NCBI GenBank assembly: GCA_903642225.1
Contig: CAHJWI010000021.1
Coordinates: forward strand, 1 to 64,000
Length of the DNA stretch: 64,000 nt
Direction of reading: 5' to 3'
From: Acidobacteriaceae bacterium
GTDB taxonomy: Bacteria > Acidobacteriota > Terriglobia > Terriglobales > Acidobacteriaceae
Positions within the stretch are counted from its first letter, which is position 1. Each line of letters opens with the position of its first letter. Below are positions 55,057 to 61,482 of this stretch, one piece after another. Both the position numbers and the translations under genes were made by a program. The notes beneath the pieces were generated by a model, which was given only the letters and a program-made list of their open reading frames with translations, had not been told where the DNA came from and made no database searches.

Positions 55057-55404
55057 TTATTTTGAGAATGAGGCAACAGCGCTTGCTTCGTCGTCCTTTA
55101 CATCAAACACTGTGTAAAGCTTGGTGATCTGTAGCAGGTCCTTGACCTTCTTGGTCAGGTTCAGCAATTTCAGCTCTCCGCCAGCATTCTTCACAGAGGT
55201 GTACGCGCTCACCAGCTCGCCAAGGCCGGAGCTGTCCATGTAGCTGACGTCGCCAAGGTTCAGCAGGATGTATTTCTCGCCCTTGTTCAGCAGGTCGCGG
55301 ATGGCGTCACGCACGGTGACACTGCCCTCGCCCAGGGTGATGCGGCCGCTCAAGTCCAGAATGACAATGCCGTCTACCTGGCGCGTGCTTACCTTGATGC
55401 TCAT
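55057..55404 (-). CDS. STAS anti-sigma factor antagonist (RsbV-like)
   Basis: 115 aa. The STAS domain has VILDLSGRITLGEG and the phosphorylation site YMDSSGLGEL (Asp57-Ser58-Ser59). When unphosphorylated such proteins bind the kinase/anti-sigma factor and free the sigma factor; phosphorylation on Ser ends this. Its partner kinase is encoded just upstream on the same strand (43-bp gap), in reverse of the usual RsbV-RsbW order. No sigma factor gene is near. Confidence 0.93.
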   Translation of the reverse strand: MSIKVSTRQVDGIVILDLSGRITLGEGSVTVRDAIRDLLNKGEKYILLNLGDVSYMDSSGLGELVSAYTSVKNAGGELKLLNLTKKVKDLLQITKLYTVFDVKDDEASAVASFSK

Positions 55405-55446
55405 TGGTCCTCCTTGGGAGGGTGCCCGTGAAGTCAGGCACCGAAA

Positions 55447-55887
55447 CTACGGGTTGAGTGGGCCGGTGGTGCGGTGCTTGATCATGGTCAGCTCCGTGCC
55501 CGGGGTGAGTTGGCGAAAGTGTACCTCATCCATTAAAGCGCGCATCAGGAACACGCCACGGCCAGAGCCGCGCAGGATGTTTTCCGGCAAAAGTGGATCA
55601 GGAAGAACAGCTGCATTGAAGCCGGTGCCCTCGTCTGCGATACGAATGGTCATGTCGCTCGCACTGGCTTCCAGAGACGCATGGACCTGCTTGTCCCGGC
55701 TGTATGTGTTGCCGTGCAAAACAGCATTCACGGTAGCTTCGCGCACTGCCATCGCAATGTTCGCCGCATCATCTTCGTCAAAGCCGTGGTCTGACGCAAA
55801 CTTCTCGGCCTCTTGCTCCATACGATCGACTGTATCGAGCGTAGAGGGAAGCGTGAGCGTCTGGCGGCCTGTGATGGACTCGTTCAA
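55447..55887 (-). CDS. anti-sigma factor serine kinase (RsbW/SpoIIAB-like)
   Basis: 146 aa. The GHKL ATPase boxes are present: IAMAVREATVNAVLHGN (N box), IRIADEGTGF (G1) and GSGRGVFLMRALMDEV (G2). The family phosphorylates the STAS antagonist and sequesters a sigma factor. Start TTG at 55887 has GAGG 4 nt upstream; the longer frame to 56100 runs to the divergent gene's leader without homology. It pairs with the STAS protein as a partner switch; the target may be a phosphatase or sigma factor encoded elsewhere. Confidence 0.88.
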   Translation of the reverse strand: MNESITGRQTLTLPSTLDTVDRMEQEAEKFASDHGFDEDDAANIAMAVREATVNAVLHGNTYSRDKQVHASLEASASDMTIRIADEGTGFNAAVLPDPLLPENILRGSGRGVFLMRALMDEVHFRQLTPGTELTMIKHRTTGPLNP

Positions 55888-56164
55888 GAGACCTCGGAGA
55901 GTAGGACAGCGTGGAATGCGTTGAAGTGGCCGGTACTCGGAAAGTCTGCTTGCCACAGAGAGGAAAGTCAAGCAGGGAAAGCTGCGCACCGAAGGTTTGC
56001 TAGCGTGTTCTACGCACGGGGCCACAGACCGGTTCCATCCACGCACGCCCGATTCACACAGGCAGGTCGCGCGCCACTCTCGCGTGCGGTTAGACTGCAC
56101 CTAGACTGCCGCACGGTCTGCGTACACCACCGCCCCGCCATCTGCCAGGAAAGGCACCTCGCCC

Positions 56165-57436
56165 ATGAGCCATACTCACGCTCACAACACGACCGTTGCC
56201 CTTTTGCAGGGTTCGCCGGTGTATGACGCAGAAGGCAAGGTCAGCGGCCGGATTGCAGAATTCCTAGTAAACGGCACGGAAGCTTCGACCCACGTGTCTG
56301 AACTTCTGCTTACCACAAATGGCAAGATGAGCGGCAAGGGCGCCATAGCCGTTCCACTCAAGAGCCTCTCGTTGCGCAACGACGGCAGCTTGCGGCTCCA
56401 TGGGCCTGTTGTCGAGAAGTCGGCAGAAGACCTCGCCGCCAGTGTTTGCCTGGAGCGCGACCTACTCGACCAGCAGATTATCGACGTCCATGGCCACAAA
56501 GTCGTCCGCGTGAACGATGTCGATCTTATATGGGAGGCGCAGGACGACGTTGTCTGCGACCTTCGCATCGCCGAGGTAGAGGTCGGCATGCGTGGAGCGG
56601 CGCGCCGCTTGCTGAAAGGCCTGCCTCCAAAGGCGATCAATGCGGTAGCGTTGCGCTTTTCTCCGCGTCCCATTCCTTGGGAGTTTGTAGACCTGATCGA
56701 CCGCGACCCGGCACGGCGTGTTCGCCTGAAGGTTGCGGAAGACAGGCTCTCGCGCATGCATCCGTCCGACATCGCAGACATCCTGGAAGAGCTTGGACCG
56801 GCAGAGCGCGATGCTGTTTTCACGTCCCTCAACGAGGAGGTTGCAGCGGAAGCGCTGGAAGAGGTCGACCCAAAACTGCAGCGCTCCTTGCTGGAGCATA
56901 TGGATAGTGGCCGCGTTGCGGACATTGTGGAAGAGATGGATCCCGCCGCTGCCGCCGACCTGTTATCCGAACTTTCGGAAGAGCGGTCCGACGCGATCCT
57001 GGAGCAGATGGAGCCGGAGGAGCGGCAGGAAGTTGAGGACCTGCTGGAGTTCCGCGACGACGAGGCAGCAGGCCTGATGACGACGGAGTACGTCTCTGTG
57101 TCGGAAGCGGCGACCGTCAGCGTTGCCGTGGAGGCGCTCCGCGCCTTTGAAGGCTCGCTGGAAACCGTGTCTGAGATTTATCTGGTCGACGCCGCCGATC
57201 ACCTGAAGGGTGTCGTCAACCTGTCGCGAATCCTGCTTGCGCCGGTAGATGCGCAGCTGGGATCGATCAAAGATGAACGGGTGCATTGCTGCACGCTGGA
57301 AACCCGCGGCAAAGAAATTGCCGCGCAATTCGACAAGTACAACCTGCGCGCGTTGCCCGTGCTTGAAGAGGACGGTCGTCTGGCCGGCGTGATTCTGGCA
57401 GAGCACGTCATTGCGCTTTTGCGGGAAGGCCAGTGA
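56165..57436 (+). CDS. MgtE N-domain/CBS protein with PRC-like N-terminus
   Basis: 423 aa without any membrane helix. A PRC-barrel-like part (GSPVYDAEGKVSGRIAEFLV and VVEKSAEDL, to about residue 150) precedes the MgtE N-terminal superhelix (about 195-300, with the repeating DIADILEELGPAERDAVF and VADIVEEMDPAAAADLLSEL). Tandem CBS domains follow (about 305-420, AGLMTTEYVSVSEA and YNLRALPVLEEDGRL). In MgtE this module senses Mg2+ and gates the pore, which is missing here. It overlaps the next gene by 4 nt and leads to an NRAMP-family transporter, which it could control (inference). Confidence 0.88.
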   Translation: MSHTHAHNTTVALLQGSPVYDAEGKVSGRIAEFLVNGTEASTHVSELLLTTNGKMSGKGAIAVPLKSLSLRNDGSLRLHGPVVEKSAEDLAASVCLERDLLDQQIIDVHGHKVVRVNDVDLIWEAQDDVVCDLRIAEVEVGMRGAARRLLKGLPPKAINAVALRFSPRPIPWEFVDLIDRDPARRVRLKVAEDRLSRMHPSDIADILEELGPAERDAVFTSLNEEVAAEALEEVDPKLQRSLLEHMDSGRVADIVEEMDPAAAADLLSELSEERSDAILEQMEPEERQEVEDLLEFRDDEAAGLMTTEYVSVSEAATVSVAVEALRAFEGSLETVSEIYLVDAADHLKGVVNLSRILLAPVDAQLGSIKDERVHCCTLETRGKEIAAQFDKYNLRALPVLEEDGRLAGVILAEHVIALLREGQ

Positions 57437-58503
57437 CCCGTGTGAAGATCTTGTACGCCGCGCCGATCTCGCCGAACGACTCCGCGGAGTACCGCCGGCT
57501 TGCACTCGTTCGCGCTGGCCACACCGTTGTCCCATTCAATACGTATGCCTATGGCATGAAGAACCCGTTGCTTCGAAAAGTCGAGTATCGGCTCGCCGCC
57601 GGACCCGAAGTCGCGCGTATGAATCGCGATCTGCTGGCACTTGCGTCGATGGAAAAGCCGGACGTGCTGTGGTGCGACAAGGTCCTCTGGATATATCCGA
57701 GCACTCTGGATACGCTGCGAGCGTGGGGTGTTCGCACCGTGTCCTACATGATTGACAACTTTTTTGGACCGCGCCGCGATCCCGGTTGGCGCCTGTATGC
57801 CAGGACGATCTCCCATTACGATCTGCACTGCACGCAGCGCGATGCGAATGTACGCGACTACCTTGCCGCCGGTGCACAGAACGTCATCAAGATCCAAACT
57901 GCGTTCGAGCCGACCGTGCACTATCCCGCTCCCGTGCCGTACACCGATGTGCAGCGGGACAGGGGTGTGTCGTTCATCGGCACGACGTACGACCAGCGAC
58001 CAGCGACCCTGATGCGCATGGCAGAGGAAGGCCTGCCGGTCGTCATAAGTGGCGGCGAGCATCACTGGAAACATGCACTCCCATCGGCTGAGTTTGCAGC
58101 CCTGTACCGTGAGGGTGAGTTGTATAACGAGCGTTACCGCTCCGCCATCTGGCGCTCCAAAATTAATCTCAGCTTCCTCACACATTCCAACGCAGACGAG
58201 TTCGTACACAAGAGTTTTGAAATTGCGGCGTGCGGTGGTTTTCTGCTGGCGGAACGCTCGCCCGGCCACGCGGAGCGTTTTGTTGAAGGTGAGGAGGCTG
58301 CCTTCTTCAGCGGCTACGACGAGCTTGTCGCGCAGGTGCGGCGGTACCTGCCGGATGAAGTCGCACGCGCGCGCATTGCCCTGGCCGGCCAGCGCCGCGC
58401 CTGGACCGGCGGTTACGACAATGACACACAGGTGCGCCGCATCCTCGACCGGGTATTGCAGCTTGCGCCCCTGCACCACGATCGTCAGGCGGTGATCGCG
58501 TGA
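57433..58503 (+). CDS. CgeB-like family 1 glycosyltransferase
   Basis: 356 aa from a GTG that overlaps the MgtE-domain gene. The N-terminus VKILYAAPISPNDSAEYRR and the C-terminal HKSFEIAACGGFLLAERSPG with a FVEGEEAAFFSGYDEL block mark the CgeB/Glyco_trans_1_2 family. It resembles the product at 189-1301. It also overlaps the NRAMP gene by 4 nt (GTGA), so it is made together with two ion-related proteins; why is unclear. Confidence 0.85.
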   Translation: MTRVKILYAAPISPNDSAEYRRLALVRAGHTVVPFNTYAYGMKNPLLRKVEYRLAAGPEVARMNRDLLALASMEKPDVLWCDKVLWIYPSTLDTLRAWGVRTVSYMIDNFFGPRRDPGWRLYARTISHYDLHCTQRDANVRDYLAAGAQNVIKIQTAFEPTVHYPAPVPYTDVQRDRGVSFIGTTYDQRPATLMRMAEEGLPVVISGGEHHWKHALPSAEFAALYREGELYNERYRSAIWRSKINLSFLTHSNADEFVHKSFEIAACGGFLLAERSPGHAERFVEGEEAAFFSGYDELVAQVRRYLPDEVARARIALAGQRRAWTGGYDNDTQVRRILDRVLQLAPLHHDRQAVIA

Positions 58504-59804
58504 GCAGTTGGTGGAAGCAGTGGCGCGTTCGCATTCTGTTCTTCCTCGCGGCCCTCGGTCCAGGTTTTATCACGGCCAACGTGGACAACGACGCCGGCGG
58601 CATTTTTACCTACTCCCAGGCAGGCGCGCAGTACGGCTACTCGCTGCTTTGGACCATGCTGCCCATCACGCTCGCGCTCATCGTCGTGCAGGAGATGTGT
58701 GCACGCATGGGCGCCGTCACCGGCAAGGGTCTCAGCGACCTGATCCGTGAGGAATTCGGTCTGCGCATCACGCTGGTCTGCATGGTGCTGCTTGTCATCG
58801 TCAACTTTCTGAACGTGGTCACAGAGTTTGCAGGCATCGCTGGTTCCATGCAGCTCTTTCATGTTTCCAAATTCATCAGCGTTCCTGTTGGAGCGCTGCT
58901 GGTATGGGCGCTTGTCGTGCGCGGCGATTACAAGAGCGTCGAAAAGATCTTCCTCTTTGCCTCGGTGGTGTACCTGGCCTACATTGTTGCCGGCGTGCTT
59001 GGCCGGCCGGACTGGCACGAGGCTCTTGCCGAAACAGTGAAGCTGCCTCCGCGCTCGGCATGGAAAGATCATGCGTACCTGTACTCCACGATTGCCGTCA
59101 TTGGTACGACCATCACACCGTGGATGCAGTTTTACCTGCAATCTTCCATCGTGGAAAAGGGTGTCACGATGCGGCAGTACAAGGCCACCCGCATTGACGT
59201 GATCGTTGGGTCCATCTTTACCGACATCGTCGCCTGGTTCATCGTCGTGGTCTGTGCCGCAACCCTCTTCGTTCACGGCATGCGCAACATTTCGCTGCCC
59301 AGCGATGCGGCGGAAGCCTTGCGTCCCATCGCCGGCGACTACGCCTTCATCCTCTTTGCTGCGGGTCTGTTCAACGCATCATTGTTCGCGGCATCCATCC
59401 TGCCGCTGACAACGGCCTACACCGTTTGCGAAGGTCTGGGTTTTGAGAGCGGCCTGGATCGTACATGGAAGCAGGCACCGGTCTTTTATTGGTTCTACAC
59501 ACTACTGATTGTTTGTGGTGCGGCTGTTGTGTTGCTGCCGGGATTCAATATCGTCAGTACGGCAATCCTGTCGCAGGTACTCAATGGCTTGCTGCTGCCG
59601 GTCATCCTGTATTTCATGCTCAAGCTGATCAACAACAAGCAACTGATGGGGGAGTACACCAACTCGCGCTGGTTCAACATCGTCGCCTGGAGCACCGCCA
59701 TCATTGTGGTGTCACTCAGCTTTGCGTTGGTGTGGGATGCAGTCCGACCGCATGCGGCGGCCGCTGCTGCCTATTTCCACGTGCCTTCGCCTACAAAGCG
59801 ATAA
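58500..59804 (+). CDS. NRAMP-family divalent metal transporter, atypical metal site
   Basis: 434 aa, about 11-12 membrane helices, GTG start. GPGFITANVDNDAGG (20-34) aligns with the helix-1 GPG...DPGN of NRAMP, but Pro and Asn of DPGN are Ala and Gly. In helix 6, the canonical M-P-H is T206-P207-W208 (GTTITPWMQFYLQ). Loss of the Met that favours Mn/Fe and excludes Mg/Ca, together with the MgtE-type sensor protein in the operon, suggests Mg2+ or another hard cation; this is inference. Its last 34 bp overlap the convergent response regulator gene. Confidence 0.87.
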   Translation: MSSWWKQWRVRILFFLAALGPGFITANVDNDAGGIFTYSQAGAQYGYSLLWTMLPITLALIVVQEMCARMGAVTGKGLSDLIREEFGLRITLVCMVLLVIVNFLNVVTEFAGIAGSMQLFHVSKFISVPVGALLVWALVVRGDYKSVEKIFLFASVVYLAYIVAGVLGRPDWHEALAETVKLPPRSAWKDHAYLYSTIAVIGTTITPWMQFYLQSSIVEKGVTMRQYKATRIDVIVGSIFTDIVAWFIVVVCAATLFVHGMRNISLPSDAAEALRPIAGDYAFILFAAGLFNASLFAASILPLTTAYTVCEGLGFESGLDRTWKQAPVFYWFYTLLIVCGAAVVLLPGFNIVSTAILSQVLNGLLLPVILYFMLKLINNKQLMGEYTNSRWFNIVAWSTAIIVVSLSFALVWDAVRPHAAAAAAYFHVPSPTKR

Positions 59805-60517
59805 CCGACACCGCGCACTGTCACCAGACGCGCAGGTCGCACCGGATCGACTTCAAGGTAGCGCCGCAAGCGGACCACAAAATTGTCGATTGCGCGAGTG
59901 TCCGTGTCTTCCCGCACACGCCACACCTCCTCCAGAATCTCACGACGTGACACGACCTTGCCGACGCGATCGATGAGGTAATGCAGCAGGTCCGCTTCCA
60001 TCAGCGTCAGGTGGACCGTCTGTTCTGGCGTGACAATCTCGAGCGTGTCAAAGTGAATGGATCGATCACCCAACTGGAAGACGTTCCGGTCATCCGTCAA
60101 CGTCTGCTCGCCCGGAGCGCTGACGGGGAGCGCGCGCTGCCACTGCATGCGCCGCAGCAGACTGTGCAGTCGCGCAAACAGGATGGACAGCTCGAAAGGT
60201 TTGGGCAGGTAATCGTCGGCACCTGCCTCAAAGCCCTCAAGTACGTCTTCCGGCCGACCGCGCGCAGTCAGCATAAGAATAGGGACGTAGTTGTTTGCAG
60301 CGCGCAGTTGGCGGGCGATGTCGAAGCCCTCGATGCCTGGCAACATCACATCCAGCAGCACAGCCGCTGGCGCTTCCGGCGTGTTTAGCAGGTACTCTAA
60401 GGCGGCCTCGCCGTCTGCTTCGTGGTGCATCCGGTAACCCTCCGCACGCAGGTTGAACAGCAGCGCCTCTGCAAGGTGGGCCTCATCTTCTACCAGGGCG
60501 ATCAACTCGCCGCTCAT
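59771..60517 (-). CDS. OmpR-family response regulator
   Basis: 248 aa. Receiver domain with IALVEDEAHLA, Asp56 in VLLDVMLPGIEG and the Lys in GADDYLPKPFE. The winged helix ends with TRAIDNFVVRLRRYLEVDP and VRGVGYRF. The kinase gene lies upstream with a 4-nt overlap (ATGA). The stimulus is unknown; genes next to it concern metal transport on one side and fatty acid desaturation on the other. Confidence 0.93.
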   Translation of the reverse strand: MSGELIALVEDEAHLAEALLFNLRAEGYRMHHEADGEAALEYLLNTPEAPAAVLLDVMLPGIEGFDIARQLRAANNYVPILMLTARGRPEDVLEGFEAGADDYLPKPFELSILFARLHSLLRRMQWQRALPVSAPGEQTLTDDRNVFQLGDRSIHFDTLEIVTPEQTVHLTLMEADLLHYLIDRVGKVVSRREILEEVWRVREDTDTRAIDNFVVRLRRYLEVDPVRPARLVTVRGVGYRFVGEGTWK

Positions 60518-61482
60518 GCGCGTAGCTCGGGCTGTTCTGCCGCGCGCGGTATCGGCTGCAACAGGGCGCTTAGCAGGGGGAGACGCACTGTAATCGTCGT
60601 TCCATGACCGGGCCCGTAGCTCTGCGCTGATGTGTCGCCACCGTGCTGGCGAACGATAGCCCCTGTAATGAACAGGCCTAGACCGGTGCCCTTGATGCGT
60701 GCGCTCTCCCGGCTCGTCACGCGGTAAAAGCGGTGGAAAACGCGCTTCAGCTGTGCCGGTGGGATCCCTAGACCCGTGTCGGTGATGCGCAGCATGACTG
60801 TATCCTCGCGCAGTACGGACAGCTCAGCAGTGATGTCAACGCCGCCGGGCGAATACTTCACCGCGTTATCAAGAATGTTGAGCAGTGCCGTCCGCAAACC
60901 CTGCGCCTCGCCTGCAACGAACACCGACCGTGCCCCTGCCTGGTCGTCCAGCCGCATCGCACTGTTGCTCAGGTGATGGCGGCGAACAGTCTCGGCCAAG
61001 ACCTCGTGGGTCATCTGCCGCAAGTCGACCGGCAACCTGGCTTTACCCTGCTTCACCACGCCTTTTGCGTTCGCCTCGCCCGCACGCAATATTTGCTCTA
61101 CCGTGCTCAGCAGCCGATCGCTGTCTTCCATCATGCGCCCGTAAAATTCGTGCCGTTGCGCGTCGTCCATCGGGCGCCGCTGCAGGGTTTCCAGATACAG
61201 CCGAATCGATGCTATGGGTGTCTTCAACTCATGCGTAACGGCATTCAAAAAACTGTCCTGCCGCTCATTGCGTCGAACTTCCCGCACCAGAAAGATCGTG
61301 TTCAGGATGAGTCCCGCAATGATGACCGAAAAAAAGATAATGCCTAGAACGAAGTACACCACGTGCAGTTGATGTACGTTCAGAATGATCCAGCCGACAT
61401 TCAGCGCGGCCGCCAGCCCGGTAAGGCAAACGCCCAGCGTCACAAAGGTCGCAACGGCTCCGCGGCGGCGGGTGATGTTCAT
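60514..61482 (-). CDS. sensor histidine kinase
   Basis: 322 aa. Two N-terminal membrane helices (about 10-34 and 41-65) have almost no loop between them. HisKA follows with His84 in FLNAVTHELKTPIASIR, then HATPase boxes LLNILDNAVKYSPGG, ITDTGLGIPPAQ and GTGLGLFITG. The lack of a sensor loop points to detection in the membrane or through a partner. It is first in the two-gene operon; the desaturase gene lies upstream with a terminator between. Confidence 0.92.
   Translation of the reverse strand: MNITRRRGAVATFVTLGVCLTGLAAALNVGWIILNVHQLHVVYFVLGIIFFSVIIAGLILNTIFLVREVRRNERQDSFLNAVTHELKTPIASIRLYLETLQRRPMDDAQRHEFYGRMMEDSDRLLSTVEQILRAGEANAKGVVKQGKARLPVDLRQMTHEVLAETVRRHHLSNSAMRLDDQAGARSVFVAGEAQGLRTALLNILDNAVKYSPGGVDITAELSVLREDTVMLRITDTGLGIPPAQLKRVFHRFYRVTSRESARIKGTGLGLFITGAIVRQHGGDTSAQSYGPGHGTTITVRLPLLSALLQPIPRAAEQPELRA

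Follow-up and report, generated by a model that had tools for sequence, protein, structure and literature searches.

An NRMT-clade SLC11 transporter and its MgtE-derived partner gene in an Acidobacteriaceae genome, and the distribution of NRMT and the MgtE pore in Terriglobia

An ordinary NRMT-clade SLC11 protein, a transporter type already known, is encoded in the window (the whole stretch of DNA analysed, 64,000 nucleotides), and an MgtE-derived partner gene, which was absent from an earlier note on this DNA, is the best local clue. The transporter is probably a LeuT-fold carrier whose widened ion site would serve the uptake of hydrated Mg2+, and probably of Mn2+, without proton coupling, and its gene is probably cotranscribed with that of a regulator acting in trans. 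This soluble partner would be a descendant of the N-CBS portion of MgtE, the cytosolic half of that channel, and would most likely report the cytosolic divalent-cation level and restrain the carrier, with NRMT serving as a housekeeping Mg2+ importer. The useful part of the analysis is the pattern in the class Terriglobia: genomes without MgtE tend to have NRMT and a poreless MgtE sensor instead, and the two states are also exchanged inside genera. The exclusion and the sensor-residue patterns were computed here, and neither was found in the open-access literature searched.

The features of the locus are as follows.

55057-56100, minus strand: STAS-domain and HATPase_c_2 genes (Pfam), divergent from the operon and 64 bases off, presumably a pair of the anti-sigma type
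56165..57436, plus strand: partner gene, 423 amino acids, with a PRC-barrel match slightly under the cut-off, MgtE_N and CBS domain(s) (Pfam and MgtE alignment)
57433..58503, plus strand: glycosyltransferase-like gene (Pfam Glyco_trans_1_2; model matches GT-B enzymes)
58500..59804, plus strand: NRMT-clade SLC11 transporter, 434 amino acids, GTG start (Pfam Nramp; EleNRMT 7qia the best match in sequence and fold)
58590..58601, plus strand: helix-1 site motif D-A-G-G (canonical NRAMP: DPGN; DNA and alignment)
59106..59123, plus strand: helix-6 site motif T-T-I-T-P-W (canonical NRAMP: A-T-V-M-P-H; DNA and alignment)
59771-61482, minus strand: response regulator and histidine kinase genes (Pfam), convergent with NRMT; the end of the response-regulator ORF overlaps the 3′ end of NRMT by 34 bases

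The transporter and its ion site

The earlier note had placed an NRAMP-family gene at 58500-59804 on the plus strand, and exactly these coordinates were obtained for the ORF. The product matched Pfam Nramp with 317.1 bits (E 1.9e-94), passed the general NCBIfam model NF037982.1 (Nramp family divalent metal transporter; 75.4 bits, cut-off 50) and stayed below the cut-off of PRK00701.1 for MntH (158.6 bits, cut-off 430). In a PDB sequence search, EleNRMT of Eggerthella lenta (7qia; further structures 7qic, 7qji and 7qjj) was at the top (E 1.5e-111), with 192 of 397 aligned residues (48%) identical, and the best canonical NRAMP was DraNramp (E 8.9e-31). An AlphaFold model (mean pLDDT 82.6, pTM 0.84) was compared by Foldseek with known structures, a check that the earlier note had proposed, and EleNRMT 7qia again came first (E 2.8e-27, TM 0.87/0.94, rmsd 2.3), ahead of the best DraNramp entry (E 1.3e-17). 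Sequence, structure and context thus agree with the class named in that note, the NRAMP-related Mg transporters. In a FastTree phylogeny with only one NRMT (EleNRMT) and two NRAMPs as references, 53 Terriglobia sequences and EleNRMT were placed apart from the two canonical Nramps with a node support of only 0.66, and in this same small-reference tree the window transporter lay 1.72 substitutions per site from EleNRMT versus 3.36 from DraNramp. Among the best 80 of 428 relatives, seven named records were 80-88% identical over the transporter, six of them Terriglobus and one named only Acidobacteria, which places the window in Terriglobus or in its immediate vicinity.

The replacement of DPGN by DAGG and of M-P-H by T-P-W, on which the earlier note had been built, was confirmed in the DNA and by alignment. 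Codons 58590-58601 (GAC GCC GGC GGC) encode D31-A-G-G34 and codons 59106-59123 (ACG ACC ATC ACA CCG TGG) encode T203-T-I-T206-P-W208, and these columns align with DPGN and ATVMPH of DraNramp and of the second Nramp of the genome. D31 and G34 stand opposite D55 and G58 of EleNRMT, T203 opposite T224, and T206 opposite the Ala three residues further, whereas W208 takes the place of the first helix-6b His. The D, G, T and Q of the ion site of EleNRMT (D55, G58, T224 and Q379) and its helix-3 Glu (E133) are all conserved in the window transporter, and the published NRMT signature, DxxG-TxxA/T (PMC8806188), is present as D31..G34 and T203..T206; the two proteins differ at the former Met position, Ala in EleNRMT and Thr in the window, which is within the A/T of the signature. 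An NRMT alignment was made from 32 sequences (the window plus 31 of the best 80 loci), in which D31, G34, P207 and W208 are invariant (32/32). Position 203 carries T in 31 sequences with A in the other one, and the Met position, 206, carries T in 19, A in 13 and M in none. Such constancy among relatives shows that the motif change is not due to chance.

Charged positions outside the ion site are altered as well. DraNramp and the genome's own MntH have D in helix 3, H in helix 6b and two R in helix 9, columns that we take to be the proton path residues of DraNramp; the window transporter has V106, W208, Y333 and T334 in these columns, and the helix-3 Glu is retained as E109. At the second helix-6b His, the window has Leu or Gln depending on gap placement, and His in neither case. 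EleNRMT likewise has Trp for the first helix-6b His and has lost the charged residues of helices 3 and 9, its charged and His positions being described as replaced in like fashion (PMC8806188).

The partner gene and the layout of the locus

Residues 193-419 of the partner were aligned to the N and CBS domains of Thermus thermophilus MgtE (2yvx, 2zy9) with E 4.1e-29, and its PRC-barrel match (20.6) was just under the Pfam cut-off (21.2). The protein stops 4 residues past the position of MgtE residue 252; of the N domain, CBS domains, plug helix and pore that make up an MgtE channel, it contains MgtE_N and CBS only. The association of NRMT with a gene for an MgtE cytosolic domain is not new, having been reported in 2014 (PMC4072509). 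Among the open-access papers listed, titles and abstract openings showed no later study of an MgtE-like partner of NRMT, which is not proof of absence.

At each end the glycosyltransferase gene shares a 4-nt GTGA with the adjoining gene, at 57433 and 58500, and because of these overlaps the partner, glycosyltransferase and NRMT genes are probably cotranscribed. Its model (pLDDT 88.1) matched many GT-B folds at 10-15% identity, and a PDB search with its sequence returned no relatives at E up to 10. The layout was surveyed in genome contigs carrying the best 80 of 428 transporter relatives, with partner and glycosyltransferase counted at tblastn E < 1e-20 and the gene start taken as the start codon nearest the match (one incomplete glycosyltransferase, in L036, and one incomplete partner, in L048, were left out of the count). 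Both genes were found in 40 of these loci, the partner only in 15, the glycosyltransferase only in 2 and neither in 23, where less than 3 kb lies upstream of NRMT in 12 of the 23 loci with neither gene, in both glycosyltransferase-only loci and in one partner-only locus. The order partner, glycosyltransferase, NRMT on one strand was kept in 39 of the 40 loci with both genes (39/80 overall), the exception being L104, in which NRMT comes first. The 4-nt overlap between glycosyltransferase and NRMT recurs in 8 of the 40, and gaps of 2.6-4.4 kb were found in other loci. By Pfam, GMC oxidoreductase and aldo/keto reductase genes occupy the gap in L058 (L058:1540-5816) and a GMC oxidoreductase gene that in L067 (L067:3331-5928), and gap ORFs similar to these were found in L040, L083 and L087; ORFs on the opposite strand lie between partner and NRMT in L089, L091, L106 and L108.

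Spacing across the class was compared by lower coordinates for the best 60 MgtE_N matches listed (53 with an NRMT position, 7 without). In 29 of the 53, NRMT is on the strand of the partner and starts no more than 2 kb downstream, and in 16 it starts 2-9 kb downstream, with 3 far off or on the other strand and 5 on another contig; in G037 and G197, partner and NRMT are 100-200 kb apart. Of 20 distant regions, mostly picked because both matches were listed near each other, 18 have the partner immediately before NRMT, both on one strand and with no glycosyltransferase, the exceptions being L147 (partner about 6 kb off) and L146 (no partner).

Two side observations concern these loci. The glycosyltransferase and the GMC oxidoreductase and aldo/keto reductase genes between partner and NRMT look like a sugar-modification cassette. 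In L043, a contig titled Verrucomicrobia, NRMT is 76% and the partner 51% identical to those of the window, and this contig is probably mislabelled or part of a mixed metagenome bin.

The Mg2+-site residues of Thermus MgtE, as named in PMC5882242, were mapped onto the partners. In an alignment of 41 close partners (the window and 40 of the best 80 loci), E59 (Mg7) is acidic and D95 (Mg6) is D in all 41, the Mg4 pair D91 and D247 is lost in 40 and kept as D in L111 only, and D226 and D250 (Mg5) are D in none; the window's own partner has the Mg4 and Mg5 residues replaced. Among partners of other GTDB families (17 sequences), D95 (17/17), D91 (16/17) and D247 (17/17) are kept, E59 is acidic in 12, D226 is replaced by N in all and D250 is D in none. 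L131 and L147, from more distant genera of the window's GTDB family, have residues like these other-family partners and unlike the window. The full-length MgtE proteins of the class that were compared, 14 in number, all keep D91, D247 and D250, with E59 acidic in 10, D95 kept in 8 and D226 kept in 8, and positions 59, 95 and 226 are therefore variable also in working channels or their relatives. The free-standing partners have N at 226 and lack D250 in 60 of 60, and they contain no plug helix, their length beyond position 252 being 0-8 residues versus 195-210 in MgtE. The Mg4 and Mg5 pattern would fit either a retuned Mg2+ sensor or one that has stopped sensing Mg2+, and the comparison names sensor residues of the partner that are worth testing.

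NRMT and the MgtE pore across Terriglobia

NRMT and three Mg2+ routes (MgtE, CorA and MgtA, with CorB/CorC types outside the survey) were searched for in a sample of 200 Terriglobia genomes. A genome was counted as NRMT-bearing at best E < 1e-40 (weakest counted 2.4e-50, G161; strongest excluded 4.5e-31, G042), as having the MgtE pore at E < 1e-10 (32 genomes, with 5 weaker ones dropped; G062 shows a partial match and 9% contamination), as having CorA at E < 1e-40 (46 genomes, with incomplete best matches in G027, G039 and G068 and 26 weaker genomes uncounted) and as having MgtA over the curated cut-off (42 genomes).

NRMT is present in 171 of the 200 genomes. The MgtE pore was found in 11 of these 171 versus 21 of the 29 that lack NRMT (Fisher P 2e-14), and by genus in 10/69 with NRMT versus 12/15 without (P 2e-6; counted by hand from genus labels, with g4, g51, g65, g66 and g67, which contain both states, placed on both sides), P values that overstate the case because genomes share ancestry and some are incomplete. 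The exchanges within genera are the stronger part of this evidence: in g51, G157 has NRMT and G060 and G085 have MgtE; in g65, G106 has NRMT and G112 MgtE; and in g66, G109 has NRMT, G174 MgtE and G186 neither. MgtE_N without the MgtE pore was found in 159 of the 171 NRMT-bearing genomes; among the 8 genomes that lack both NRMT and the pore, 5 have no MgtE_N, 2 have a weak match (E 3.7e-4 and 4.6e-4) and one, G193, a strong one. The MgtE pore, CorA (E < 1e-40) and MgtA over the cut-off are all missing from 94/171 NRMT-bearing versus 2/29 NRMT-lacking genomes. Taken alone over the 200 genomes, neither CorA (39/171 versus 7/29) nor MgtA (35/171 versus 7/29) shows exclusion with NRMT. Near-exclusion of the MgtE pore is what one would expect from a replacement of MgtE by NRMT with a sensor half, and it therefore provides a modest new argument for Mg2+.

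In the genome of the window itself (3.66 Mb, 94% complete), no match to PF01769, the MgtE pore, and no MgtA over the curated cut-off were found. A CorA with the GMN motif is present, so that NRMT is not the sole candidate Mg2+ route here; a separate canonical Nramp with DPGN/MPH is also present, so that Mn2+ uptake has another candidate.

The transported ion and the role of the partner

The earlier note had proposed, from the lost Met of helix 6, that the protein moves Mg2+ or another hard ion. Mg2+ transport by the window NRMT is likely, but the motif alone is no proof: the Met is indeed replaced, yet its absence is insufficient evidence, because EcoDMT given three NRMT site residues is reported to have retained Mn2+ transport and shown no Mg2+ interaction (PMC8806188). 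The substrates described for EleNRMT are Mg2+ and Mn2+, not Ca2+, without H+ coupling (PMC8806188); Ca2+ as the other hard ion is therefore disfavoured, and by analogy Mn2+ is probably also a substrate of the window NRMT.

By taxonomy, the nearest experimentally tested protein is NrmT of Acidobacterium capsulatum (Acp2977), a species placed with Terriglobus in one NCBI family, Acidobacteriaceae. By its description (PMC4072509), this system resembles that of the window in lacking an M-box and in having a gene for an MgtE cytosolic domain upstream, and differs in that this gene (Acp2976) is immediately upstream there, whereas a glycosyltransferase lies between in the window. Full rescue of a B. 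subtilis Mn-uptake mutant was reported for it, whereas rescue of a Mg-uptake mutant was partial, required low millimolar Mg2+ and was not improved by the partner gene, and the authors regarded the protein as a likely Mn2+ transporter (PMC4072509). By analogy, this complementation stands against a pure Mg2+ reading of the window NRMT. The NRMT-clade proteins of Clostridium acetobutylicum (Ca_c0685 and Ca_c3329), likened here by description, include an MgtE-like gene in the Ca_c0685 operon and differ by an M-box riboswitch, which the same source takes as a sign of Mg2+ specificity (PMC4072509). An Rfam scan of the whole window gave no family, M-box included, at gathering score, and a riboswitch-controlled locus was rejected on this result. 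The question left in 2014, on the function of the MgtE-like fragment and on the choice between Mg2+ and Mn2+ as the ion of acidobacterial NRMT, is now directly testable in cultured Terriglobus.

Alternatives to Mg2+ uptake under a partner acting in trans were weighed on these data. A carrier importing mainly Mn2+, with Mg2+ moved only at millimolar concentrations and an MgtE-like partner that senses Mn2+ or has another task, would accord with the A. capsulatum complementation (PMC4072509), with Mn2+ transport by EleNRMT (PMC8806188), with the loss of the Mg4 and Mg5 residues in the window's partner and with the missing M-box, but it is judged unlikely: the exclusion of the MgtE pore fits a Mg2+ route and not a Mn2+ route, 131 of the 171 NRMT-bearing genomes have an MntH-like Nramp (E < 1e-60 to the genome's own MntH, by similarity alone and motifs aside) beside the DPGN/MPH Nramp found here, and the ion-site residues are those of EleNRMT save for the allowed A/T. 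Drift of a canonical Mn2+/Fe2+ NRAMP at its metal site, for which the shared Pfam family might be cited, is highly improbable and was rejected, since sequence and fold match EleNRMT, DAGG/TPW stands instead of DPGN/MPH, the changed residues are common to EleNRMT and conserved in 32 relatives (invariant or T/A, with the one A at 203), and a separate canonical Nramp exists in the genome.

It is rather unlikely that the partner regulates something other than the carrier, for example the glycosyltransferase pathway, with a merely historical gene order. The glycosyltransferase is nearer to the partner than to NRMT in many loci, oxidoreductase and reductase genes precede NRMT in some, opposite-strand ORFs lie between partner and NRMT in four, G037 and G197 have partner and NRMT far from each other, and the A. 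capsulatum partner left Mg rescue unchanged (PMC4072509); against this, the partner is directly upstream of NRMT without a glycosyltransferase in 18 of the 20 distant regions, mostly chosen for proximity, and G193 alone among the 8 genomes lacking NRMT and pore has a strong MgtE_N. Regulation of the carrier in trans, the preferred reading, can tentatively be extended: many Terriglobia may have swapped the MgtE channel for a two-protein system in which a free sensor half gates the unrelated NRMT, loss of Mg4 being a further retuning around Terriglobus, Granulicella and Edaphobacter. The idea that the family as a whole has lost Mg4, and that this loss accounts for the A. capsulatum result, was dropped, because L131 and L147 of the same GTDB family and the close relative L111 keep Mg4.

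Variants of the NRMT site were noted in other loci. L147 (G123:C4:119900-131000) carries two adjacent NRMTs with DAGG/ATIAPW and DPGG/TTITPW, and the latter motifs also occur in L146, the second NRMT copy of G115 (G115:C17:52500-57000), which has no partner within its 4.5 kb region. In the NRMT of L135, Glu replaces the helix-1 Asp, and in those of L129, L132, L138 and L144 the otherwise conserved helix-3 Glu is Asn and the helix-6 motif is TSVAPW; judging from these residues, a different ion preference is possible in all five.
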